Translations under genes and position numbers: made by a program | NCBI GenBank assembly: GCA_938007965.1 | Contig: CALLMH010000014.1 | Coordinates: 1-64,000, forward strand | Length of the DNA: 64,000 nucleotides | Source of the DNA: an uncultured Saprospiraceae bacterium | Lineage (GTDB): Bacteria; Bacteroidota; Bacteroidia; Chitinophagales; Saprospiraceae | Reading direction: 5' to 3' | In this document: positions 15,828 to 29,278 of the stretch, piece after piece | Layout: the number at the start of each line of letters is the position of its first letter | Numbering within the stretch: position 1 is the first letter of the stretch | Notes under the pieces: model-generated | Told to the model about the DNA's origin: nothing | Seen by the model: the letters and a program-made list of their open reading frames with translations, nothing else | The model's database searches: none

Positions 15828-15902
15828 CGGGAATGTTATACAAAACTATTACGCGTTATTTATTTAGACAAAATCTAAATAAACTGAATACGTGCGAATA
15901 AG

Positions 15903-15934
15903 TTGCTTTAAAATAATGTTAAACACTATTTTTG
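15903..15934 (+). promoter_or_regulatory. Bacteroidota promoter of the alternative complex III / oxidase cluster
   Basis: A -33 TTG (15903-15905) and a -7 TATTTTTG (15927-15934) are separated by 21 bases, matching the two-part sigma-ABfr promoter pattern. It lies 75 bases before the chosen actA start at 16009 and inside the long open frame that begins at 15892, so that upstream part is not coding. This is the best promoter in the window. Confidence 0.6.
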
Positions 15935-16008
15935 TAGGTGTAAAAAGAGGAAATATAGACAACTCTCTGAGTACCAAAGATAAAGTAAGTATTGAAAAGA
16001 ATTATATA

Positions 16009-17418
16009 ATGATATATAAGCATCTCAACATTAATAAATTGCTAACCATTGTGTTGGTAATGTTTTCTTTCAGCCTTCAAGCGCAAGTAAGTGCTGATGC
16101 GGGAAAGACTGTATTTAAAAACTATTGTGCATCATGTCACAATAAGAATATGGTTTCTGATATGACTGGTCCTGCATTAGCGGGAGTAGAAGAAAGATGG
16201 GACACGCAAGAGAATCTTTACGCTTGGATTAGGAATTCACAAGCCATGATTTTCGAGGTAGGACATCCTAGAGCTGTAGAGCTATGGAATGAGTACAAGC
16301 CTAGTGCGATGACAGCATTCCCAAATTTGACAGATGATGAAATAGCGTCGACTTTACTATACATCAATGGAGTAACAGATGGAACTTATGGAGCACCTGC
16401 TGGAGATGTTGCTGGTGTCAGTGCTGATAAGCCAGTAGAGGAATCTTCTAATGGATGGCTTTATGGGCTTCTCCTTGGAATATTGGCCTTGCTCGCAATG
16501 TTACTGACTAAAATTATCAGTAATCTCGATGTATTAGCTGCAGCAAAAGAAGGAAAAGAAGTACAGCAGAAAACTTTAATCCAATCACTAACATCTAAAG
16601 GGGTTGTTGGATTTTTAATCTTTGGATTGGTTGTATTCGCAGGGTATACGACGGTGACAAATGCTACTAACTTAGGAAGACAACAAGGCTATCAACCAGA
16701 CCAACCGATAAAATTTAGTCACGTAACTCATGCTGGTATTAATAAGATAGAATGTCAGTACTGCCATGACGGAGCGAGACGATCAAAGCACTCAGTGATA
16801 CCAGCAGCCAATACATGTATGAATTGTCATAAAGCAATTAAAAATGGGTCAGAATATGGTACTGCGGAGCTTACAAAAATCTATGCTTCAATAGGATATG
16901 ATCCTAGTACTGATAAATATTTAGAAAACTACGAGGATATTGCCACTGAAGATTATAAGGAAATATACACTAAATGGATCGCAGATCAATATCTTGTAGA
17001 AACTGGGTTGGCAGAGTTGGATACTGAAGGGAAGAATATAGTAAAGTCCCAGTGGGATGGAATTGTTTCTTCGCTTACAAATGAACAAAAGAAGAAAGTA
17101 CAAGGTCCTATCGAATGGATTCGTATTCACAATCTTCCTGATCATGTTTATTTCAATCATGCTCAACACGTAACTGTTGGCCAGATTGAGTGTCAAGATT
17201 GTCATGGTAAGATTGAAGAGATGGCTGTAGTACAACAACATTCTCCATTATCTATGGGATGGTGTATCAATTGTCACAGAAAGACAGAGGTGAAATTTAA
17301 AGAAAATGAATACTACGAATCTTATTCGGAGTATCATGAAGATATACAGTCAGGTAAGAAAGACAAAGTAACGGTTGCAGATATTGGGGGTCTTGAGTGT
17401 CAAAAATGTCACTACTAA
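16009..17418 (+). CDS. actA: Alternative complex III multiheme cytochrome c subunit ActA, with extra N-terminal monoheme domain
   Basis: 469 residues from the ATG at 16009, which gives a clean Sec signal peptide (ending LQAQ). Six CxxCH heme sites are visible: C40-H44, C249-H253, C270-H274, C395-H399, C419-H423 and C464-H468. Residues about 30-120 form a class I cytochrome c domain with a plausible Met ligand (M101, SAMTAF); a membrane helix follows at about 150-171, then a second helix (199-219) and the canonical five-heme ActA domain starting GYQPDQPIKFSH. ActA is the electron wire of alternative complex III at the periplasmic face. The frame continues upstream to GTG 15892, but a promoter lies there. 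First gene of the cluster. Confidence 0.9.
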   Translation: MIYKHLNINKLLTIVLVMFSFSLQAQVSADAGKTVFKNYCASCHNKNMVSDMTGPALAGVEERWDTQENLYAWIRNSQAMIFEVGHPRAVELWNEYKPSAMTAFPNLTDDEIASTLLYINGVTDGTYGAPAGDVAGVSADKPVEESSNGWLYGLLLGILALLAMLLTKIISNLDVLAAAKEGKEVQQKTLIQSLTSKGVVGFLIFGLVVFAGYTTVTNATNLGRQQGYQPDQPIKFSHVTHAGINKIECQYCHDGARRSKHSVIPAANTCMNCHKAIKNGSEYGTAELTKIYASIGYDPSTDKYLENYEDIATEDYKEIYTKWIADQYLVETGLAELDTEGKNIVKSQWDGIVSSLTNEQKKKVQGPIEWIRIHNLPDHVYFNHAQHVTVGQIECQDCHGKIEEMAVVQQHSPLSMGWCINCHRKTEVKFKENEYYESYSEYHEDIQSGKKDKVTVADIGGLECQKCHY

Positions 17419-17493: not shown

Positions 17494-20400
17494 ATGAAAG
17501 ATAATACGTCAAATATTTGGATAGGAGGAAAGGATCTTACAAATGATCCAGAATTCATTGAAATATCTCAGAAAGAGTTTGCTGAGCCAACGAATCTATT
17601 AGAAGATCTTGGCAACGAAGAAGTTGCTACTTCAGTAGGTAGTAATAGAAGAGATTTCTTGAAGTTCTTAGGATTTGGATTGGGCGCAGCTACTGTGGCC
17701 GCGGGTTGTGATATCCCTGTGAAGAGAGCTATTCCTTATGTAGTGAAGCCAGATTCGATTGTTCCTGGTGTAGCTTCGTACTACTCTTCTACATATGTAT
17801 CGGGCGGAGAGTCTCTTCCGATATTGGTGAAGACACGAGAGGGAAGGCCTATCAAAATAGAAGGTAATGTATCTTCTAGTATGACCAAAGGTGGTACTTC
17901 GGCAAGAGCTCAGGCGTCTGTATTGAGCTTGTATGATACGTCTAGATTTACAACTCCTAAGGTAAAGAAAGCGGGAGAATGGGCGGATAGTAACTGGGCT
18001 GATGTAGATAAAGCGGTCGCTTCAGCATTGGCTTCGTCCAATGGAGTAAGAGTCGTTACCAATACAGTTCTAAGTCCAACAGCGAAAGCTGCAATGTCTG
18101 AGTTTACAAGTAAGTTTGGTGGGTCTGTAGTAACTTATGATCCAGTATCAAGTTCAGCAATACTCGATGCGAATGAGCAATCATTCGGTGATAGAGTTAT
18201 TCCTGATTATAGATTCGACAAAGCGGACGTCATCGTTTCTTTTGGAGCTGACTTCCTAGGTACTTGGATATCTCCAGTCGAATATGCCGCTCAATGGGTA
18301 CAAGGAAGAAAGATAAAAGATATAAAGAACCCTTCGATGTCTAGACACATACAAGTAGAGTCTGGGATGTCTATGACAGGGTCAAATGCTGATAATAGAA
18401 TCATGGTTAGGCCATCAGAGATGGGAGCCGCGATTGCTTATCTAGCGAATAAAATAGTAGGAGGTGTTTCTGCACCAGCATTAAATTCTGATGCCAAAGC
18501 AGCTCTAGATAAAATAGCTACAGAGCTAAAAGCTGCAAGAGGAAAATCTCTTGTAGTTAGTGGATCTAATAATGTGTCAGAGCAGATATTGGTAAATGCT
18601 ATTAATAACAGCCTAGGCAACTTGGGCACTACAGTTAATTTTTCTAATGCTTCACTACAAAGACAAGGAAGCGAAAAAGAATTGACACAATTGGTATCAG
18701 ATATTAATTCTGGTAGAGTAGATGTAGTGATTTTCAATCAGTGTAATCCAGCATATGATTTTGTTGGCGCCGAAGCATTGAAAGCTGCATTGGCAAAAGT
18801 AAAGACAAAAATATCATTCTCAGCTACTAATGATGAGACTACTGATATGTGTGATATCATAGCTCCTACAAATCATACGCTAGAGAGCTGGGGAGATGTA
18901 GAGGCGAAACGAGGACAATACAGTATTATTCAGCCGACTATTAATAACCTATTTGATACGAGACAGTATGAGCAGTCATTGTTGACTTGGGCTGAGTCGT
19001 CAAATCTTGATACTAAATCAGAACAACCATATTTTGACTACATAAAGTCAAATTGGAAGAAAACCGTTTTTGCTGGACAGTCCAAATTTTCATCATTCCA
19101 ATCTTTTTGGGATAGTGTTCTTCAAGATGGAGTATATGAAGGTAGTGGAAGTGGATCGACACCTTCATTTTCAGGAAATGTTGCTTCTGCAGCTGCGGGT
19201 ATTACTAAACCTTCTACAAATGAGGTTGAAATATCATTCTATGAATCTATTGCACAGGGAAATGGGCAGTTTGCCAATAATCCATGGTTACAAGAAATGC
19301 CTGATCCAGTAACTAGAACTTCTTGGGGGAATTACCTAGCCGTACCTGTTAATTTTGATGGGGTTAGGACTTTCGTAGGCTACAACGATCTAGAAGATGG
19401 AGATTTAGTCGATGTTACTATCGGAACAAAGACGCTAAGAGTTCCAGTTGTTCAGCAATTTGGACAAATGGCTGGTACTGTATCACTGGCACTAGGATAT
19501 GGAAGAGAATTCGGTATAAAAGGTGATCCTGTAGGTGTAAATGTAAATGATGTATTGACTGTAGGTAAAGACGGGAATACTAATTACTTTAATACAAATG
19601 CGGCTATAACAAATAAAGTTGGTAAAGAAGATTACTTCTCATGTGTACAATATCACCATACTATGGGTGTAAAGGCTGCAGAAGAAGGAACGGGAGAAAT
19701 TATAAATGCAGATGAAGCTGCAACAGTATTCTTTGACTACTTTACTGGGATTAAAGGTTTCCAAGGATCTTTGACAGACAGATCTATCATCTATAATTCT
19801 ACTGTAAAAGATCTTAAAGAAAATATTGAGATACTAGAAGGTAAAAGAGCTCATGCTCAACACCTTAATGCACAGCAAATATATAGAGGTTTTGATTCTA
19901 CCTATGAGATGGGGCATCACTGGGGCATGAATGTAGATCTTAATTCATGTATAGGATGTGGAGCATGTACTGTAGCATGTATGTCTGAGAATAATGTTCC
20001 AGTTGTTGGAAAGAGGGAAGTCTCAAGACACCACGAAATGACATGGTTAAGAATTGATAGATACTATTATGGAGACGCTAAGAACCCTAATGTAGTATAC
20101 CAACCGATGATGTGTCAGCATTGTGATAATGCACCTTGTGAAAATGTTTGTCCGGTAAATGCGACGAATCACTCTTCTGAAGGTCTTAATCAAATGACAT
20201 ATAACAGATGTATCGGTACTAGATACTGTGCGAATAACTGTCCATATAAGGTTAGAAGATTTAACTGGTTAGATTACACAACTGCAGATTTATTCCCTGC
20301 GAATCAGCCATCTGTGGCAGGAGAAGAAATTCCATTTGGTGCTGATAACCTTACGAGAATGGTTCTGAACCCTGATGTTACTGTAAGAGCAAGAGGTGTC

Positions 20401-20679
20401 ATAGAGAAATGTAGCTTCTGTGTACAGAGATTACAGTCAGGTAAATTGACTGCGAAAGTAGAAGGAAGAAGATTAAGAGATAACGATGTGAGTTCTGCAT
20501 GTATGACAGCTTGTCCTACTGGAGCGATTACATTTGGAGATTTGAATAATAAGAAAGGAGAATTGGTTAAGAAGAATACTTCACCGCTATCATACTTGGT
20601 ATTGGAAGAAGTAAATATCAGACCGTCAGTTACTTACACAATGAAAGTAAATAACAGAGACACGTCTTTTGATGCTTAA
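17494..20679 (+). CDS. actB: Alternative complex III iron-sulfur/molybdopterin-like subunit ActB
   Basis: 1061 residues. An N-terminal twin-arginine leader RRDFLKFLGFG (52-62) ends in AAGC (C72), so the protein is probably exported folded and lipid-anchored. Residues about 75-760 resemble the molybdopterin oxidoreductase fold without a cofactor role; about 810-1000 carry ferredoxin-type clusters with CIGCGACTVAC, CQHCDNAPCENVC, a CIGTRYCANNC-type motif, and CSFC...CMTAC, consistent with three 4Fe-4S and one 3Fe-4S clusters. It docks on ActC and passes electrons from menaquinol to ActA. Confidence 0.93.
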   Translation: MKDNTSNIWIGGKDLTNDPEFIEISQKEFAEPTNLLEDLGNEEVATSVGSNRRDFLKFLGFGLGAATVAAGCDIPVKRAIPYVVKPDSIVPGVASYYSSTYVSGGESLPILVKTREGRPIKIEGNVSSSMTKGGTSARAQASVLSLYDTSRFTTPKVKKAGEWADSNWADVDKAVASALASSNGVRVVTNTVLSPTAKAAMSEFTSKFGGSVVTYDPVSSSAILDANEQSFGDRVIPDYRFDKADVIVSFGADFLGTWISPVEYAAQWVQGRKIKDIKNPSMSRHIQVESGMSMTGSNADNRIMVRPSEMGAAIAYLANKIVGGVSAPALNSDAKAALDKIATELKAARGKSLVVSGSNNVSEQILVNAINNSLGNLGTTVNFSNASLQRQGSEKELTQLVSDINSGRVDVVIFNQCNPAYDFVGAEALKAALAKVKTKISFSATNDETTDMCDIIAPTNHTLESWGDVEAKRGQYSIIQPTINNLFDTRQYEQSLLTWAESSNLDTKSEQPYFDYIKSNWKKTVFAGQSKFSSFQSFWDSVLQDGVYEGSGSGSTPSFSGNVASAAAGITKPSTNEVEISFYESIAQGNGQFANNPWLQEMPDPVTRTSWGNYLAVPVNFDGVRTFVGYNDLEDGDLVDVTIGTKTLRVPVVQQFGQMAGTVSLALGYGREFGIKGDPVGVNVNDVLTVGKDGNTNYFNTNAAITNKVGKEDYFSCVQYHHTMGVKAAEEGTGEIINADEAATVFFDYFTGIKGFQGSLTDRSIIYNSTVKDLKENIEILEGKRAHAQHLNAQQIYRGFDSTYEMGHHWGMNVDLNSCIGCGACTVACMSENNVPVVGKREVSRHHEMTWLRIDRYYYGDAKNPNVVYQPMMCQHCDNAPCENVCPVNATNHSSEGLNQMTYNRCIGTRYCANNCPYKVRRFNWLDYTTADLFPANQPSVAGEEIPFGADNLTRMVLNPDVTVRARGVIEKCSFCVQRLQSGKLTAKVEGRRLRDNDVSSACMTACPTGAITFGDLNNKKGELVKKNTSPLSYLVLEEVNIRPSVTYTMKVNNRDTSFDA

Positions 20680-20722: not shown

Positions 20723-22147
20723 ATGAGTGCTGTTGTAAGTCCAATAAGAGAGCCCTTAGTAACAGGGGGCAAAACCTATCATCAGATTACTGAGGATCTA
20801 ATCTCTCCAACTGAGAGAACTCCTCCTGCGTCATGGGTGATCGGGTTGATTTTGTCAATTATCACATTTTCATTCGGTGCATTCTGTCTATTGTGGACAA
20901 TATGGCACGGTATAGGAACATGGGATCTGAATAGAACTATCGGATGGGGTTGGGATATTACCAATTTTGTTTGGTGGATCGGTATTGGTCACGCCGGGAC
21001 ATTGATTTCTGCCATTCTTCTATTGTTTAGACAGAAATGGAGAACAGGAGTAAATAGAGCTGCAGAAGCCATGACTATTTTTGCCGTTATGTGTGCAGCG
21101 ATCTATCCTGGTATACATATGGGAAGAATGTGGATGGCCATGTTTATCTTCCCGTATCCAAATACGAGAGGTCCGCTTTGGCCTAACTTTAATTCTCCAC
21201 TTCTGTGGGACGTATTTGCGATATCGACATACTTTACAGTTTCTGTATTGTTCTGGTATGCTGGTCTTGTTCCTGATTTCGCAACGATAAGAGATAGAGC
21301 AACAGGACTTAGAAAAAATATTTATAATTTCCTTTCATTTGGATGGACGGGTTCAGCTAAGCACTGGCAAAGATGGGAATCATTATCCTTGATTCTTGCG
21401 GGTATTGCGACACCGTTGGTACTTTCGGTACACACAATTGTATCATTTGACTTTGCTACTTCAGTAATTCCTGGATGGCATACAACAATATTCCCTCCCT
21501 ATTTCGTAGCCGGAGCAATATTCTCTGGGTTCGCGATGGTACTGACATTGATGTTGGTTACTAGAAAGCTATTAAGTCTAGAAGACTATATAACTATAGA
21601 ACACGTAGAATCAATGAATAAGGTCATTCTTGCAACTGGGTCTATTGTGGGTGTGGCATATCTGACAGAGTTATTTATTTCATGGTATTCTGGTTATGTA
21701 TATGAGCAATTTGCATTCTTTAATAGAGCATTAGGACCATATTGGTGGTCATACTTTGGTATGATGTTTTGTAATGTACTTTCTCCTCAGTTCTTCTGGA
21801 GTAAAAAATTGAGAAGAAATGTATTGTTTACATTCTTCATGTCAATCTTTATCAATATTGGTATGTGGTTTGAGCGATTTGTAATTATTGCAACAACATT
21901 AGCAAGAGATTACTTGCCATCATCATGGTCATTCTACAGTCCTACGTGGGTTGAGATAGGTATTTTCGTTGGTACTATTGGTTTGTTCTTCGTATTGTAC
22001 CTAGCATTTACCAGAGTAGCGCCTGTGGTTGCAGTAGCTGAGATTAAGAGTATCTTGAAGACAGGAGGTGATCAGTATGTAGGGCCAAAGAATGCGCACA
22101 AGATGAGTCATGCACATGAGGATGCACACGCACACGATGCGCATTAA
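20723..22147 (+). CDS. actC: Alternative complex III membrane subunit ActC (NrfD-like)
   Basis: 474 residues with about ten membrane helices of the NrfD/PsrC family, the quinol-oxidising membrane subunit. Typical segments are WWIGIGHAGTLISAIL, IYPGIHMGR, and WHTTIFPPYFVAGAIFSGFAMV. The C-terminus ends in a histidine-rich tail (HKMSHAHEDAHAHDAH). It is separated from ActB by 43 bases and from ActD by 38. Confidence 0.93.
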   Translation: MSAVVSPIREPLVTGGKTYHQITEDLISPTERTPPASWVIGLILSIITFSFGAFCLLWTIWHGIGTWDLNRTIGWGWDITNFVWWIGIGHAGTLISAILLLFRQKWRTGVNRAAEAMTIFAVMCAAIYPGIHMGRMWMAMFIFPYPNTRGPLWPNFNSPLLWDVFAISTYFTVSVLFWYAGLVPDFATIRDRATGLRKNIYNFLSFGWTGSAKHWQRWESLSLILAGIATPLVLSVHTIVSFDFATSVIPGWHTTIFPPYFVAGAIFSGFAMVLTLMLVTRKLLSLEDYITIEHVESMNKVILATGSIVGVAYLTELFISWYSGYVYEQFAFFNRALGPYWWSYFGMMFCNVLSPQFFWSKKLRRNVLFTFFMSIFINIGMWFERFVIIATTLARDYLPSSWSFYSPTWVEIGIFVGTIGLFFVLYLAFTRVAPVVAVAEIKSILKTGGDQYVGPKNAHKMSHAHEDAHAHDAH

Positions 22148-22185: not shown

Positions 22186-22716
22186 ATGAGGAAAGCTGTT
22201 CACAGAAATATGGATGTTGTTTATGGATTGTATGATGATGAAGAAATCATGATGGATGCAGTAAAACAAGCAAACAAAGATCACTTGGATATAATGGATG
22301 TTTATTCTCCATTTCCAGTTCACGGATTAGATCCTTTATTAGGACTGGAGGAATCAAGATTACACGTTGCGGGATTTGTTTTTGGTTCAATGGGAACTTT
22401 GACTGCATTTTTAGGGATGACTTGGATTTTTACTAAAGACTGGCCTATCATTTTTGGTGGTAAGCCATATTGGTCAGTTCCTGCATTTATTCCAATTACG
22501 TTTGAGTTAACTGTATTATTTGCAGCGATTGGGATGGTTGTTACCTTTTACACTATATGTGGCCTTGGACCTGGTGTGACCAACCCTTACTTAGATGATA
22601 GAATAACAGATGATAAATTTTGTATAGCCTTTGATAAATCTAATGTGGACTTGTCAGCAGTAGAATCATTTTTTGCTGCAACTGGAGCATCTGAGGTGAA
22701 TCAAAAAACTATATAA
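22186..22716 (+). CDS. actD: Alternative complex III subunit ActD (DUF3341)
   Basis: 176 residues, DUF3341. The N-terminal soluble part (VYGLYDDEEIMMDAVKQ, then DVYSPFPVHGLD) is the family signature, followed by two membrane helices (VFGSMGTLTAFLGMTWIF; ITFELTVLFAAIGMVVTFY). ActD is a structural membrane subunit without cofactors. The FKSNVD-like C-terminal soluble part is present, so the gene is complete. Confidence 0.92.
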   Translation: MRKAVHRNMDVVYGLYDDEEIMMDAVKQANKDHLDIMDVYSPFPVHGLDPLLGLEESRLHVAGFVFGSMGTLTAFLGMTWIFTKDWPIIFGGKPYWSVPAFIPITFELTVLFAAIGMVVTFYTICGLGPGVTNPYLDDRITDDKFCIAFDKSNVDLSAVESFFAATGASEVNQKTI

Positions 22717-22737: not shown

Positions 22738-23592
22738 ATGAATATTAAAAAATATATCTTCCTAGGAGTTGTAGCAATAATGCTTTCTCTTCAGTCATGC
22801 CAGCAAGCCGGTGTTAATAATCCTGGTTCTGAATACATGCCTGATATGGGACACTCAGTAGCATATGAAGCTAATTACTACAATTACTACTACAGTAACA
22901 CCTGGGGATCAGAAGATGATTATTACCAGTTTGCTAAGCCGAAATTACCAGTAAATGGTACGGTACCTCGAAGGGGAAATGGTAGCGGTTATAACCTTCC
23001 AAAACAGGGAAGTGTTCCGTATTATTACGAGAATACAGAGGAAGAAAGAGCTAGAGCAATAGCCGAAATAATAGACAATCCACTGCCTATAACTACTGTA
23101 GGTTTGGCAGAAGGAAAAAATCTATACAATATTTTTTGTGCTACTTGTCACGGGGAAAAAGGTGATGGAAATGGCTACTTAGTAAGGGATGGAGGTGCGT
23201 ATCCTGCACAGCCAGCTAATTTCTTATTAGAAGAGCATGTAAAATCATCAAATGGAAGATACTATCACTCTATTATGCATGGTAAAAATGTAATGGGAGG
23301 TTATTCTGATAAAATTTCTTATGAGGAAAGATGGAATGTGATACATTACATCAGATCACTACAAGCGAAAGAATTGAAGTTGACGTATTCTCAGGTGGAG
23401 AACACACTAAATAAAGTTGATCGACCGGCGGGAGAAAATTACATGGCTTCAAATATGGATGCGTATAATGTTGAATTAGAACACAATGATGATCATCACC
23501 ATATGGAAGGAGATGAGCATGAAGGTCACATTGATCATAGCGATCATGGTGAGGACCACGATGCTCATGGAGATCATAATCATGGAGAATAG
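22738..23592 (+). CDS. actE: Alternative complex III monoheme cytochrome c lipoprotein ActE
   Basis: 284 residues beginning with a lipoprotein signal peptide (LSLQSC, lipid Cys near residue 21). One heme site, CATCHGEKGDGNG, near residue 139, with a likely Met ligand in HGKNVMGGYSDKI. ActE is a periplasmic monoheme cytochrome of the complex that sits near ActA. The C-terminal 35 residues are almost entirely His, Asp, Glu and Gly (for example HNDDHHHMEGDEHEGH), a histidine-rich metal-binding-like tail. Confidence 0.92.
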   Translation: MNIKKYIFLGVVAIMLSLQSCQQAGVNNPGSEYMPDMGHSVAYEANYYNYYYSNTWGSEDDYYQFAKPKLPVNGTVPRRGNGSGYNLPKQGSVPYYYENTEEERARAIAEIIDNPLPITTVGLAEGKNLYNIFCATCHGEKGDGNGYLVRDGGAYPAQPANFLLEEHVKSSNGRYYHSIMHGKNVMGGYSDKISYEERWNVIHYIRSLQAKELKLTYSQVENTLNKVDRPAGENYMASNMDAYNVELEHNDDHHHMEGDEHEGHIDHSDHGEDHDAHGDHNHGE

Positions 23593-23628: not shown

Positions 23629-24933
23629 ATGAATCAGTTTGTTTTTAAAAGTACAGCGAAAACGTTTTTAATATCATTTATGATACTAGGAGTCCTTTGT
23701 ATGGGATTGACATGGTTTACAGATGATGCAGTACATTCAAGGTTTTGGACAAATTTGTTACACAATAGTGTATTCTTTACAGGAATATCATTGATGGCAA
23801 CATTTTTTATAGCGGTATGTATCACAGCATATGCTGGATGGCATACTATGTTTAAGAGAGTTTGGGAAGCTATTGGATCTTTTATTTATGTAGGTCTTGG
23901 ATTGATGATATTCATCTCGATAGCTACATATCTTCATATGAATCACTTATATCACTGGACGGATGAAGCAGATGTTGCAAAAGATGCTGTATTGTACGGT
24001 AAGAAGGGTTTCCTAAATACGAATTGGTATTTATTTGGAACTATTATTATTGGTGGTACTTGGGCATATTTTTATAATCGTCTCAGAGCTTTATCAAAAG
24101 CGGAAGATGAAGATGGTGCTGGAGTGAACTTTGCCATGCACCGAAAAATGAGAGTTTATGCAGCTATATTTCTACCAATAGTAGGTTTTACATCTGCGGC
24201 AATGATATGGCTGTGGATTATGAGTTTGGATGCACATTGGTATTCGACGATGTTTGCTTGGTATACAGGAGCGAGTTGGTTCGTAACTATGATTGCACTT
24301 ACGATTCTAATTCTTTTATACCTTAAAGGAAACGGATATTATGAAAATGTTTCTCAAGAGCATATACACGATATAGGTAAGTTTTTGTTTGCTTTTAGTA
24401 TATTTTGGACGTACCTATGGTTCTCACAATTTATGTTAATATGGTATGCAAATGTAGGGGAGGAAACCATTTATTTCAGAGAACGGTATGATAAGTATCC
24501 AATTTTATTTTTTGGTAACTTGATGATAAACTTCTTGATACCTTTCTTTGTTCTATTGAGGAATGATACAAAGAGAAAATTCGGTTCCGTAGGTTTTGTT
24601 GCAGGTATAGTTTTGGTAGGACACTGGTTAGATTTTTTCTTAATGATAAAGCCGGGAGCTCTCCATACAGCACATACAGCAATAGGTCATCACGGAGGTG
24701 ATGCACACGGAGCACATGACGCGGCACACGGTGCTGCAGATGCGATAGCTCATGGAGCACATGGTGCTTCTGAATTTGTAAGTGGATTTACATTGCCAGG
24801 GTTTTTAGAATTGGGTACATTCTTAGGGTTTTTAGCTTTATTTATTTTTGTGACATTTAATTCACTAAGTAAAGCATCACTTGTTCCTAAAAATGATCCA
24901 TACTTGGGTGAGAGTTTACATCACCATGTGTAA
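23629..24933 (+). CDS. actF: Alternative complex III membrane subunit ActF
   Basis: 434 residues with about ten membrane helices, a second NrfD-like fold subunit characteristic of alternative complex III (quinol:cytochrome c oxidoreductase). WIMSLDAHWYSTMFAWYTGASWFV and RYDKYPILFFGNLMINFLIPFF are recognisable family segments. Between two C-terminal helices lies a His/Ala/Gly-rich loop (about residues 345-382; GHHGGDAHGAHDAAHG). It is directly followed by the oxidase subunit II gene, in line with formation of a complex III-oxidase supercomplex. Confidence 0.92.
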   Translation: MNQFVFKSTAKTFLISFMILGVLCMGLTWFTDDAVHSRFWTNLLHNSVFFTGISLMATFFIAVCITAYAGWHTMFKRVWEAIGSFIYVGLGLMIFISIATYLHMNHLYHWTDEADVAKDAVLYGKKGFLNTNWYLFGTIIIGGTWAYFYNRLRALSKAEDEDGAGVNFAMHRKMRVYAAIFLPIVGFTSAAMIWLWIMSLDAHWYSTMFAWYTGASWFVTMIALTILILLYLKGNGYYENVSQEHIHDIGKFLFAFSIFWTYLWFSQFMLIWYANVGEETIYFRERYDKYPILFFGNLMINFLIPFFVLLRNDTKRKFGSVGFVAGIVLVGHWLDFFLMIKPGALHTAHTAIGHHGGDAHGAHDAAHGAADAIAHGAHGASEFVSGFTLPGFLELGTFLGFLALFIFVTFNSLSKASLVPKNDPYLGESLHHHV

Positions 24934-24979: not shown

Positions 24980-26482
24980 ATGACTGGATTAATAGCATTT
25001 TTAATAATTGGGTTACTTGCAGTAATCGTAGTTCAGATCGGAAAGGTATCTGATCTTGCTGCTAAGATTAGAGGAGAAGAAGAAGTTGCTCAACAATCTA
25101 ATGATAGAACTGCCGTGTGGCTTGTAGGTTTCATGGTTATTTTCTTAATACTTGGTACTGGGTCGATGTACTATTTTAAGGATGTCATGCTTGGATATGG
25201 TCCTCACTCTTCAGCTTCCGAGCATGGTAGTCTGATCGATGGATTATTTCATTCGACATTGGTTGTAACATTTATAGTTTTCTTCATTACTCACATTCTA
25301 TTATTTTGGTATTCTTATAAATATAGAAGTAGAGAAGGTAACAAGGCACAATTTATCTCTCATAATAATACCATAGAGTTAGTTTGGACTGTAATTCCAG
25401 CTATCGTATTGACTTTCTTAGTTGTGAAAGGTCTTGTGGCTTGGAACAACATTATGCCAGATCTTGGTCCAGAAGACGAGTATCTAGAAATCGAAGCAAC
25501 TGGTTACCAGTTTGCATGGGAATTAAGACACCCAGGTTACGATGGTAAATTAGGTACGAAAGACTTTAGATTGATTAATCCTGGTTCAAATAGTCTAGGT
25601 ATAGATTGGTCTGATGATAAATCTATTGATGATATTATAATTCAGAACGAGATCGTGCTTCCTGTAGATACGACTGTAAGAGTAAGAATAACTTCAAAGG
25701 ATGTACTTCATAATTTCTACCTACCTCACTTCAGAGTAAAAATGGATGCGATTCCTGGTTTGCCTACGTACTTCATTTTCAAACCTACTACTACTACTGA
25801 AGAGTACAGACAGAAATTGAGAGATTATCCAGAATGGAATGAACCTTACGATGAATCTGATCCAGATTTGGGACCAAGGTGGAAAAATTTCAATTATGAG
25901 TTAGCGTGTGCAGAGTTGTGTGGAAAAGGACACTACAGTATGAGACGAATACTTAAGATTGTAAGCAGAGAAGAGTATAATGATTGGTTAGCTGGACAAG
26001 AGTCTACATATATGACTACAGTGAGGGGGAAAGATTCAGATCCTCGAAAAGGTCAGTTGTTAGATATAGAAATAAAGGAAAGAGCAAAGGAGTTGAAGTC
26101 AGATTTCCAAAATGCTCTATCGAGTGAGAGTAAAGATGATAAAACAATTTTGCTAAAACATGTATTTTATAATACAGGATCAGCAGCTTTATCTGATTTG
26201 TCAAAATATGAATTGGATAATCTTACAGGTATATTGAAAGCTAATCCTACTGTGAAAGTAGAGTTAGCTGGCCATACAGATAGTCAGGGGGACGAATCGT
26301 CCAATCTTGAACTATCAAAGAACAGAGCACAGAACGTAATGAATTATGTTCTAGACAAGGGACTAGATGCAAGCAGGTTAATTTACACTGGATATGGAGA
26401 GACATTACCGATTGGCGACAATGGTACTGACGCAGGAAGAGAGCAGAATAGAAGAACAGAGTTGAGAATTGTTTCACAATAG
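24980..26482 (+). CDS. coxB: Cytochrome c oxidase subunit II fused to an OmpA-like peptidoglycan-binding domain
   Basis: 500 residues. Three hydrophobic segments (1-20, about 47-66 and 92-112, plus 133-155) precede a periplasmic cupredoxin domain with a complete CuA site: H244 (DVLHNF), C310, C314, H318 and M321 in CAELCGKGHYSM. Instead of ending there or carrying a cytochrome c domain, the protein continues through a helical linker (about 325-390) into a full OmpA-like domain (392-497): HVFYNTGSAAL, VELAGHTDSQG with the diaminopimelate-binding D434, LSKNRAQNVMNYV with R449, and YTGYGETLPI...NRRTEL. CuA accepts electrons from the cytochromes of alternative complex III; the added domain should bind the cell wall. 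It follows ActF and precedes subunit I. Confidence 0.95.
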   Translation: MTGLIAFLIIGLLAVIVVQIGKVSDLAAKIRGEEEVAQQSNDRTAVWLVGFMVIFLILGTGSMYYFKDVMLGYGPHSSASEHGSLIDGLFHSTLVVTFIVFFITHILLFWYSYKYRSREGNKAQFISHNNTIELVWTVIPAIVLTFLVVKGLVAWNNIMPDLGPEDEYLEIEATGYQFAWELRHPGYDGKLGTKDFRLINPGSNSLGIDWSDDKSIDDIIIQNEIVLPVDTTVRVRITSKDVLHNFYLPHFRVKMDAIPGLPTYFIFKPTTTTEEYRQKLRDYPEWNEPYDESDPDLGPRWKNFNYELACAELCGKGHYSMRRILKIVSREEYNDWLAGQESTYMTTVRGKDSDPRKGQLLDIEIKERAKELKSDFQNALSSESKDDKTILLKHVFYNTGSAALSDLSKYELDNLTGILKANPTVKVELAGHTDSQGDESSNLELSKNRAQNVMNYVLDKGLDASRLIYTGYGETLPIGDNGTDAGREQNRRTELRIVSQ

Positions 26483-26503: not shown

Positions 26504-28348
26504 ATGGCAAATATTGCAACAACATACGACGATGACGTACTCTTAGAAGAGCACGGATATAATGATCATTTTCATGATCATCATCATGGTGATAAGTACC
26601 AGTCAGGTTTCATAAGTCACTATATATTTTCAATGGACCATAAGGTCATTGCTAGACAATTTTTAATAACGGGTATTATCTGGGCCATAATTGGTGCAGC
26701 GATGTCTGTTGTATTTAGGTTACAACTTGGTTTTCCAGAGGAAAGCTTAGCATGGTTGAAACCGGTATTAGGTAAGTGGATAGTAGTCGATCCAACGGGT
26801 GTTGGTACATTGGCGCCAGAGTTTTATTACGCCTTGGTTACGATGCACGGTACCATACTCGTATTCTTTGTACTGACAGCTGGATTAAGTGGTACTTTTA
26901 GTAATCTACTTATTCCGCTACAGTTAGGAGCGAGGGATATGGCTTCTCCGTTTTTGAATATGTTATCATACTGGTTCTTCTTTCTTGCAGGTATTGTGAT
27001 GTTTTATTCACTATTCTTAAGTACTGGTCCTTTCTCAGGTGGATGGACAGCTTATCCTCCGTTGAGTGCACTTCCACAAGCATCAACTGGTTCTGGAACA
27101 GGTATGACACTGTGGTTGGTCAGTTTGACATTATTTGTCGTGTCGGTATTATTAGGAGGTATTAACTACGTAACTACAGTACTTAATTTAAGAACTAAAG
27201 GGATGAGTCTATGGAGAATGCCATTAACAATATGGGCATTTTTTGTAACTGCGATAATCGGTGTATTATCGTTTCCAGTATTGGCTTCAGGATTCTTCAT
27301 GTTGATGATGGATAGAGGTCTAGGAACTTCATTCTTCTTGAGTGAAATATTCATAGAGGGACAAGCACTTGATAGAGTAGGAGGTTCTCCTGTATTGTAT
27401 CAGCATTTATTCTGGTTTTTAGGTCACCCTGAAGTATATATAATAATACTTCCTGCGATGGGTCTTGTATCTGAGGTATTAGCTGTGCATGCAAGAAAAC
27501 CAATATTTGGATATAGAGCGATGGTTTATTCAATCTTAGCGATTGCATTCCTTTCGTTTATTGTATGGGCTCACCACATGTTTATGTCTGGGGTAAATCC
27601 ATTTATATCTAATTTCTTTGTTGTATTTACATTGATCATCGCAGTACCATCTGCCGTAAAAGTTTTCAATTGGATTACGACATTGTATGGAGGTAATATC
27701 AGACTCAATACCCCTATGCTATTTGCTATTGGATTTGTATCATTATTCATTTCTGGAGGATTGACAGGAGTATTCTTAGGAAACTCTACGATAGATATTC
27801 AGATGCATGATACATATTTTGTAGTAGCCCACTTCCACATTGTGATGGGAGTTGCAGCATTTTTTGGGATGTTTGCAGGTATATACCATTGGTATCCTAA
27901 GATGTACAGTCGATTTATGAATGAGACATTAGGTAAGATACACTTCTGGGGGACTTTGATTGGAGCTTACGCAATATTCTGGCCTATGCACTTTATCGGT
28001 ATGGCTGGTGTACCAAGAAGATATTACAGCTTTGATACATTTGATGCTTTCAAGCACTTTTCAGGGATGAATCAGTTTATTACTGTAGCTGCAATTTTAG
28101 TATTTTTTGTACAATTAGTATTTGTTATCAATTTCTTCTACAGTATATGGAAAGGTAAGAAAATGACGACTAAGAATCCATGGGATGCAACTACTCTTGA
28201 GTGGACTACGCCTATAGAACCTATTCATGGTAACTGGCCTGGTAATCTTCCAACTGTACACAGATGGGCGTATGATTATAACAAAGATGAAAGAGAATTT
28301 GTATCGCAGATTGTTCCTTTAGAAGAAGGTGAAGTAGGTGATCACTAA
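26504..28348 (+). CDS. coxA: Cytochrome c oxidase subunit I
   Basis: 614 residues, about 12-13 membrane helices, the heme a and heme a3-CuB catalytic subunit. The CuB and crosslink region FWFLGHPEVYIIILP, the HHMFMSG pair, and the heme ligands in HDTYFVVAHFHIVMG identify an A-type heme-copper oxidase; the glutamate in the HPEVY-type motif with VYIIILPAMG is typical for the caa3/aa3 group. The N-terminal cytoplasmic tail is histidine-rich (HFHDHHHGDKY). It starts 21 bases after coxB. Confidence 0.96.
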   Translation: MANIATTYDDDVLLEEHGYNDHFHDHHHGDKYQSGFISHYIFSMDHKVIARQFLITGIIWAIIGAAMSVVFRLQLGFPEESLAWLKPVLGKWIVVDPTGVGTLAPEFYYALVTMHGTILVFFVLTAGLSGTFSNLLIPLQLGARDMASPFLNMLSYWFFFLAGIVMFYSLFLSTGPFSGGWTAYPPLSALPQASTGSGTGMTLWLVSLTLFVVSVLLGGINYVTTVLNLRTKGMSLWRMPLTIWAFFVTAIIGVLSFPVLASGFFMLMMDRGLGTSFFLSEIFIEGQALDRVGGSPVLYQHLFWFLGHPEVYIIILPAMGLVSEVLAVHARKPIFGYRAMVYSILAIAFLSFIVWAHHMFMSGVNPFISNFFVVFTLIIAVPSAVKVFNWITTLYGGNIRLNTPMLFAIGFVSLFISGGLTGVFLGNSTIDIQMHDTYFVVAHFHIVMGVAAFFGMFAGIYHWYPKMYSRFMNETLGKIHFWGTLIGAYAIFWPMHFIGMAGVPRRYYSFDTFDAFKHFSGMNQFITVAAILVFFVQLVFVINFFYSIWKGKKMTTKNPWDATTLEWTTPIEPIHGNWPGNLPTVHRWAYDYNKDEREFVSQIVPLEEGEVGDH

Positions 28349-28378: not shown

Positions 28379-29278
28379 TTGAAAAGCACAAAAACATATC
28401 TGATAGAGTCACAGTCAACTAAGAATTATTCTAAGTTGGGTGACTATGTGATGTTGGTGAAATTAAAGCTATCAATGTTGGTTGTATTTACTTCACTCAT
28501 GTCTTATTTGATAGTAGCTGGAAGTAGTGCTAGTATCGTATCGCTGGTGCTATTAGGCCTAGGTGGTTTCTTAACTACTGCAGCTGCCAATGCATTGAAT
28601 CAGGTTCTCGAAAAGGATTACGATAAAAACATGAAGCGGACAGCCGATAGGCCTATCACAACTGGGAGGATGTCATCATCTGAAGCGGTTATGTTTGCTG
28701 GGTTATCTTGTTTAGCTGGTGTTTCTATGTTAGCACTGTTTAATCCGTTGACCTCTTTATTGGGGATGTTATCTCTAATATGTTATGCATTTGTATATAC
28801 ACCGATGAAGAGGTATTCTACATCAGCTGTCGCTATAGGAGCGATACCAGGTGCCTTACCTGCATTGATTGGATGTACTGCATTCGAAGGTACTATCACT
28901 GTATTTGGTATTGGGATATTTGCATTACAATTTTTGTGGCAGTTCCCTCATTTCTGGGCGATAGGTTATCTTTCATATGATGATTATAATAATGCAGGGT
29001 ATAAGTTATTGCCCCAAGACGAATTGGGAAATGTAGATAGGAGTCTAGGTTTACATTCTACGATTTATGCGATACTGATGATACCTGTCATAGGTTTCAT
29101 ACATTATTTGGGAGATGTCAGCATGATAGCTTCATTAATAGTTTTAGTGACATCAATAATTTATATTGGTTTCAGTATTAATTTTCATCAGCGTTTTGAT
29201 AGGAAATCAGGTCTGAGATTAATGTTTTATTCATTTGTTTATTTGCCAATTATATTGGCGGCTTATTTAATTTTTTAA
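28379..29278 (+). CDS. ctaB: Protoheme IX farnesyltransferase (heme O synthase)
   Basis: A 299-residue UbiA-family prenyltransferase that adds farnesyl to heme b, needed to make heme A for the oxidase encoded upstream. The first aspartate-rich motif is visible as ALNQVLEKDYDKNMKRTADRPI, and the second near YDDYNNAGYKLLP. The start appears to be a TTG at 28379, because the next methionine (ATG 28451) would cut into the conserved DYxxLxK start of the family. The usual KPR after this is KLK here. Thirty bases separate it from coxA. Confidence 0.9.
   Translation: MKSTKTYLIESQSTKNYSKLGDYVMLVKLKLSMLVVFTSLMSYLIVAGSSASIVSLVLLGLGGFLTTAAANALNQVLEKDYDKNMKRTADRPITTGRMSSSEAVMFAGLSCLAGVSMLALFNPLTSLLGMLSLICYAFVYTPMKRYSTSAVAIGAIPGALPALIGCTAFEGTITVFGIGIFALQFLWQFPHFWAIGYLSYDDYNNAGYKLLPQDELGNVDRSLGLHSTIYAILMIPVIGFIHYLGDVSMIASLIVLVTSIIYIGFSINFHQRFDRKSGLRLMFYSFVYLPIILAAYLIF

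Follow-up and report, generated by a model that had tools for sequence, protein, structure and literature searches.

The window, i.e., the whole stretch of 64,000 nucleotides analyzed from contig CALLMH010000014.1 of an uncultured Saprospiraceae bacterium (assembly GCA_938007965.1), carries a respiratory gene cluster of the alternative complex III (ACIII)-aa3 type on its forward strand. The genes follow the order ActA to ActF, the fusion gene, CoxA, UbiA, two subunit III-like genes and subunit IV. ActA (15892–17418), named by position and domains, is a multiheme cytochrome (PF14522, PF02085) that bears an additional cytochrome c domain at its N-terminus (PF00034, residues 69–160). It is followed by ActB (17494–20679; 6btm_B, E 2.4e-200), the NrfD-like ActC (20723–22147; 6btm_C, E 8.3e-208) and ActD (22186–22716; PF11821, E 2.2e-57). 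An ActE-like monoheme cytochrome c (22738–23592) was assigned from PF13442/PF00034 and gene order, and a probable ActF (23629–24933), which had no Pfam or NCBIfam match, from position and length. Downstream of the fusion gene lie CoxA, oxidase subunit I (26504–28348; TIGR02891 at 605.9 bits, below the cut-off of 670.75), a UbiA-family protein (28379–29278; PF01040) that by its position is likely the heme O synthase CtaB, and, between 29283 and 31242, two subunit III-like genes scoring below the cut-offs together with a subunit IV gene (PF03626).

The coxB-ompA fusion gene occupies positions 24980–26482 of the forward strand as one frame of 500 amino acids, and an ORF reading of the DNA found no internal stop in it. 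The encoded protein joins cytochrome c oxidase subunit II to a C-terminal OmpA-like domain. A COX2_TM transmembrane hairpin at residues 78–149 (25211–25426; PF02790 at 43.2 bits, cut-off 22.8) is followed by the cupredoxin CuA domain at residues 171–343 (25490–26008), in which PF00116 (COX2) matched residues 171–261 at 46.8 bits against a Pfam cut-off of 22. The ligand set of a CuA center is H, C, E, C, H, and M. The set is complete in the window protein as H244, C310, E312, C314, H318, and M321. A linker at residues 344–391 (26009–26152), with a 27-residue helix predicted by AF2 at about residues 355–381, leads to an OmpA-like peptidoglycan-binding domain at residues 392–497 (26153–26470) with the pocket residues D434 and R449. 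PF00691 (OmpA) matched residues 396–491 over the full profile (1–98) at 68 bits (cut-off 27.2, E 9.4e-19). An earlier note, made from the sequence of the window, had named H244, C310, C314, H318, M321, D434, and R449, and each lies at exactly the position given there. The same note saw no stop, frameshift or composition break between the parts, as is confirmed by the frame reading and by the GC content of the CuA part, linker and OmpA part (0.366/0.354/0.379) and their GC3 (0.286/0.313/0.275), neither of which shows a break.

The protein is the sole subunit II of its genome in searches with the COX2 and COX2_TM profiles (E ≤ 0.001). It scored 139.5 bits against the NCBIfam equivalog TIGR02866, short of the cut-off of 147.7, so the name CoxB is based on the Pfam domains, the ligands and the operon. 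The mark of caa3-type enzymes, a cytochrome c domain on subunit II, was looked for, and no such family was present in the Pfam scan of the fusion protein or among the best 25 of its 44 matched families in a further profile scan. The same genome holds 26 OmpA matches, 23 of them above the cut-off, and includes a frame of 1406 amino acids with two OmpA matches (G000:C35).

Distribution of the fusion

The same fusion was found on three other Saprospiraceae/Saprospirales contigs (L002–L004) at 87, 86, and 79% identity, with matches spanning residues 1–500, 1–500, and 21–500, respectively, which excludes a chance or misassembled join. Matches to the fused protein were obtained in 269 of 298 genomes of the family. 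These comprise 175 fused, 51 unfused and 2 decayed cases, 9 cut by contig ends and 32 that were left uninspected. The 175 fused genomes are made up of 149 with the best rows listed, 18 of 80 lower-scoring genomes and 8 from the order sample described below. The 149 genomes gave 150 rows among the matches listed, every one of which reaches query residue 495 or beyond. For two of these rows (G484 and G452), a stop was reported within the match; the G484 locus (L053) is an unbroken ORF of 502 amino acids with the OmpA motif. The 80 lower-scoring genomes include 18 fused (8 as contig fragments), 51 unfused with the stop read from the DNA, 2 with a decayed tail (G440 and G538) and 9 at contig ends, including G671. 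Many relatives lack the OmpA tail, have lost it or carry it in decayed form (51 unfused and 2 decayed among these 80), so the tail is useful rather than essential; it would bring an advantage in some conditions but is not required for respiration. A search of 20 of the 29 non-matching family genomes for COX2 domains of any kind was positive in 4. The gene context is also widely kept, with a probable actF upstream of 57 of 61 fused loci and coxA downstream of 60 of 61.

Several other forms of subunit II were noted. Genome G539 of the family has two fused subunit II genes (G539:C33 and G539:C52). Loci L018, L019, L021, L025–L027, L029, and L032 of family f3 have subunit II frames of 410–454 amino acids, read from stop to stop, and the CuA motif in these frames sits about 40–110 residues later than in most, so their extra length lies before the motif. 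Locus L134 (G445), from one of the four COX2-positive family genomes that had not matched the fused protein, encodes a subunit II of 310 amino acids with a C-terminal cytochrome c domain.

The order sample consisted of 149 genomes, 19 of them from the family of the window (19/19 fused) and 130 from other families. Matches were present in 116 of the 130, of which 6 were fused (G704, G733, G708, G719, G750, and G782) and 110 were not seen fused. The only other open frames above 450 amino acids in this sample, in G787 and G699, are both unfused (L099 and L095). The suggestion of the earlier note that the fusion may exist unannotated in related genomes is borne out, as it is widespread in the family and arose by independent capture in other parts of the order. 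The phylum was sampled with 395 genomes, scoring the three best candidates of each; among the matches listed, only those of the 6 family genomes run from CuA into OmpA. A pattern scan returned L005, from the Gammaproteobacteria, as the sole relative besides L002–L004. A frame of 895 amino acids reported for G018 was rejected as a candidate, since in L096 it is a 282-residue subunit II and a frame of 612 amino acids split by a TGA. The plasmid search gave 753 matching records, none with one place covering 80% of the query, and the top match (H1, L241) is an unfused protein of 310 amino acids.

Captures, losses and other tails

The history of the fusion was followed on trees of the CuA and OmpA parts. 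On a CuA tree of 148 rows, built by a quick method and leaving out L005, L088, L096, and L102, the fused label changes 16 times; this number may be inflated because L146 (at a contig end, with a linker that looks fused) and the decayed L155 and L161 were labeled unfused in the alignment and the tree. The OmpA domains of L076, L077, and L087, which belong to three families, are 74–76% identical to one another, whereas their CuA parts are only 45–56% identical. Mean identities over 400 random pairs, drawn from 64 rows with the two decayed ones included, were 46% for the OmpA part and 57% for the CuA part. On the OmpA trees, these three domains nest among DUF937-OmpA proteins of the order, which are the source or sister of the captured domain and are not themselves oxidases. 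Pfam found DUF937 and OmpA in all seven such loci (L212, L214, L215, L216, L219, L221, and L223). In proteins of this kind, judged by eye, DUF937 is followed by a hydrophobic stretch and the OmpA domain. The OmpA tree held 26 of the 56 fused rows of the family, 15 of 43 free rows and six of the seven DUF937-type loci (without L215), and trees of this domain rest on few columns and leave many forks open.

A single origin of all fusions was rejected. Forcing all fused OmpA domains into one clade costs 93 log-likelihood units (AU p 0.0002), and holding L076, L077, and L087 with the f58 fusions was rejected as well (AU p 0.019). The tests did not reject one origin for all fusions of the family (p 0.434) or an origin shared by the family and f58 fusions (p 0.143), and the fused rows of the family do not form one clade on the OmpA trees. 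All these p-values are optimistic, because the groups were defined with the trees already in view. On the trees, the OmpA domain has been captured at least twice, probably three times, and has also been lost. In family f58, the unfused L091 and L092, from the same genus as the fused L078 and L079, have a short stub of the OmpA tail left at their C-terminus, a secondary loss by deletion. L155 and L161 (genus g217) retain a decayed OmpA domain (OmpA-profile E 0.03 and 0.07) that has lost the Asp and Arg of the pocket, with 178 residues of tail after the CuA motif vs 191 in the window protein. Other long tails occupy the same place in family members L175, L182, L178, L168, L171–L173, L255, and L257, and appear by eye to be His-rich, made of LEA-like repeats, or helical. 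Overall, the C-terminus of subunit II appears to be a hot spot at which new tails are acquired.

Pocket, proposed tether and alternative readings

Conservation was assessed in an alignment of 62 fused proteins, 56 from the family and 6 from elsewhere, which left out L001, L006, and L117 (the window gene again), L036–L038 (contigs of L002–L004) and L134–L140 (other COX2 types). The CuA ligands H244, C310, C314, H318, and M321 are invariant (62/62) and E312 is kept in 61. Within the OmpA part, D434, R449, N442, S446, and G471 are invariant in all 62. The earlier note had raised loss of the Asp/Arg pair in homologs as a point against its reading; such loss occurs in the two decayed proteins only, and every fused protein in the alignment keeps the pair. 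The mean frequency of the major residue is 0.72 in the CuA part, 0.60 in the OmpA part and 0.45 in the linker, the least conserved part. The distance from M321 to residue 395 is 71–75 amino acids in 49 of the 62 proteins (range 59–97). Compared with L002 and L003, dN/dS was 0.080 and 0.058 for the OmpA part, 0.053 and 0.059 for the linker and 0.044 and 0.038 for the TM and CuA parts; these are rough values at saturated dS, above 1.4. By these ratios, the OmpA part and linker are under purifying selection.

A partial structural model is consistent with a peptidoglycan-binding fold. The full-length AF2 model, made with 4 near sequences, reached a pLDDT of 44.9, and a partial model of residues 344–500 was used in its place (pLDDT 74.8), in which the helix at about 355–381 is followed by the OmpA fold. 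Foldseek matched the partial model to 3td5_A, an OmpA-like domain solved with the peptide L-Ala-gamma-D-Glu-m-DAP-D-Ala-D-Ala (TM(target) 0.79, E 2.5e-8). The peptidoglycan-binding domains of OprF, Capnocytophaga OmpA and TagL were also matched, and the fold matches further included 5wtp, 5u1h and YfiB-YfiR complexes. The MurE of the genome has the DNPR motif, which we take to be the mark of enzymes that add meso-DAP. In Acinetobacter baumannii OmpA, Asp271 and Arg286 are reported to bind diaminopimelate (PMC5974059), and their spacing of 15 is that of D434 and R449. If the linker helix is taken as 40 A and its flanking coils as at most 37 and 34 A, the OmpA domain could lie as far as about 110 A from the CuA domain, a distance at which it may reach the wall.

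These features make it quite probable, on present sequence evidence, that the OmpA tail is a peptidoglycan tether of the ACIII-aa3 oxidase supercomplex. Subunit II would be a working oxidase subunit in which a partly helical linker of about 48 residues connects the periplasmic CuA domain to the OmpA-like domain. The latter would bind the meso-diaminopimelate stem peptide of peptidoglycan in the cell through Asp434 and Arg449. An ACIII-aa3 supercomplex, if formed here, would then be tethered in the inner membrane non-covalently to the wall, which would limit the diffusion of the respiratory complex and fix its spacing or position. The invariant pocket and the independent captures suggest that peptidoglycan binding is the selected property. 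The proposal of the earlier note that the domain anchors the complex to the cell wall remains the best-supported reading in view of the pocket (62/62), the 3td5 match and the MurE motif, with the binding step itself deduced from these. A broader proposal, for which the chances appear about even, is that several lineages of one order have independently wall-anchored their oxidase by means of OmpA domains of different sources, giving a wall-tethered respirasome in which peptidoglycan would immobilize the ACIII-oxidase supercomplex. If true, such a respirasome may set the spacing between inner membrane and wall and fix respiratory patches.

Alternative readings of the tail were weighed against the same evidence. 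The OmpA tail may be a module for protein–protein contact or dimerization that aids assembly of the oxidase or supercomplex, with any contact to peptidoglycan incidental. Some OmpA-fold domains bind proteins too, in line with the YfiB-YfiR complexes among the structural matches, and L155 and L161 have lost the pocket residues from a tail that is still almost as long as in fused proteins; this reading is nevertheless unlikely, as it leaves unexplained both the retention of the exact DAP-binding pair in 62/62 proteins and the capture from different OmpA sources. Somewhat less likely still is a nearly neutral decoration, in which the C-terminus of subunit II tolerates tails and the OmpA domain is one among several gained and lost there. 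The His-rich, LEA-like or helical-looking tails seen by eye in the unfused L175, L182, L178, and L171–L173, the remnants left by losses in L091 and L092, and the 16 label changes on the quick and perhaps inflated CuA tree would all fit such turnover, but purifying selection on the OmpA part and linker, the invariant pocket and the persistence of the fusion over much of the family argue against it. Cleavage of the polypeptide after export, leaving subunit II and a free OmpA domain to act apart, would agree with the linker being the least conserved part and is very improbable given its narrow range of length in 49 of 62 proteins. An assembly error or frameshift joining two genes is ruled out for practical purposes by the contigs L002–L004, the 175 fused genomes of the family and the unbroken frame.

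Relation to known systems

The wall-tether reading can be compared with several characterized systems. The ACIII-aa3 supercomplex of Flavobacterium johnsoniae (PDB 6btm), as described in PMC8552683 and PMC5928083, has the same ACIII gene set as the window; ActB and ActC of the window are near relatives of 6btm chains, and ActA carries the extra cytochrome c domain in both. The two systems probably differ in the subunit II tail, as CuA-OmpA was found, among the phylum-sample matches listed, only in the family of the window. In F. johnsoniae the cytochrome c domain of ActA appears to replace that of the oxidase, according to PMC5928083. As ActA of the window has such a domain too, entry of electrons at CuA need not involve a cytochrome on subunit II. 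Electrons would pass to CuA from this extra domain (and from ActE), and the C-terminus of subunit II would therefore be free for another, structural use. The caa3-type subunit IIc of Thermus and Rhodothermus likewise is a CuA subunit extended at its C-terminus, in the position of the OmpA tail, by an additional domain, but that domain is redox-active and serves electron entry, whereas the one in the window is a non-redox OmpA fold. The statement of the earlier note that a wall-binding domain stands where caa3-type enzymes have their cytochrome c domain holds for position and fails as a replacement in function, since ActA carries an extra cytochrome c domain. The Pfam Cytochrom_C family was matched at that place in L005 (94.7 bits) and in L134 of the family (22.8 bits) against a cut-off of 21.3.

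MotB/PomB/MotS and TssL/TagL belong to inner-membrane machines that are tethered to peptidoglycan by an OmpA-like domain. They carry the domain on a linker, as does the window protein, and were among its profile and fold matches. In the MotB and TssL types, the anchored part is a stator or a secretion machine that has to withstand force, whereas the oxidase bears no obvious load. The closest conceptual precedent is PsaB of photosystem I, also a bioenergetic core subunit with an OmpA-like C-terminal stretch (PDB 7f4v chain aB, residues 770–864, E 1.5e-12 and 1.1e-12); the chain is presumably that of Gloeobacter. PsaB belongs to a different complex and lineage from the oxidase of the window, and its tail would be an unrelated capture. 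No discussion of this tail was found in the literature, including the available parts of PMC7880944 and PMC13326532; in those of the latter, OmpA is mentioned with regard to a similarly named program. No description of a CuA-OmpA fusion was found in a search that fell short of most subscription journals. The parts of the protein are already known, and their combination, with a convergent history, appears to be new. A terminal oxidase has been covalently joined to a wall-binding domain, a join made at least twice, as the trees indicate, and undone among close relatives. To our knowledge, it is still an open question whether the respiratory supercomplexes of bacteria are freely mobile or kept in position. 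Near fused and unfused neighbors exist in family f58 (L078/L079 vs L091/L092) and in family f73 (L076 vs L089/L090), so that the effect of anchoring on respiration, spacing and positioning is directly testable.
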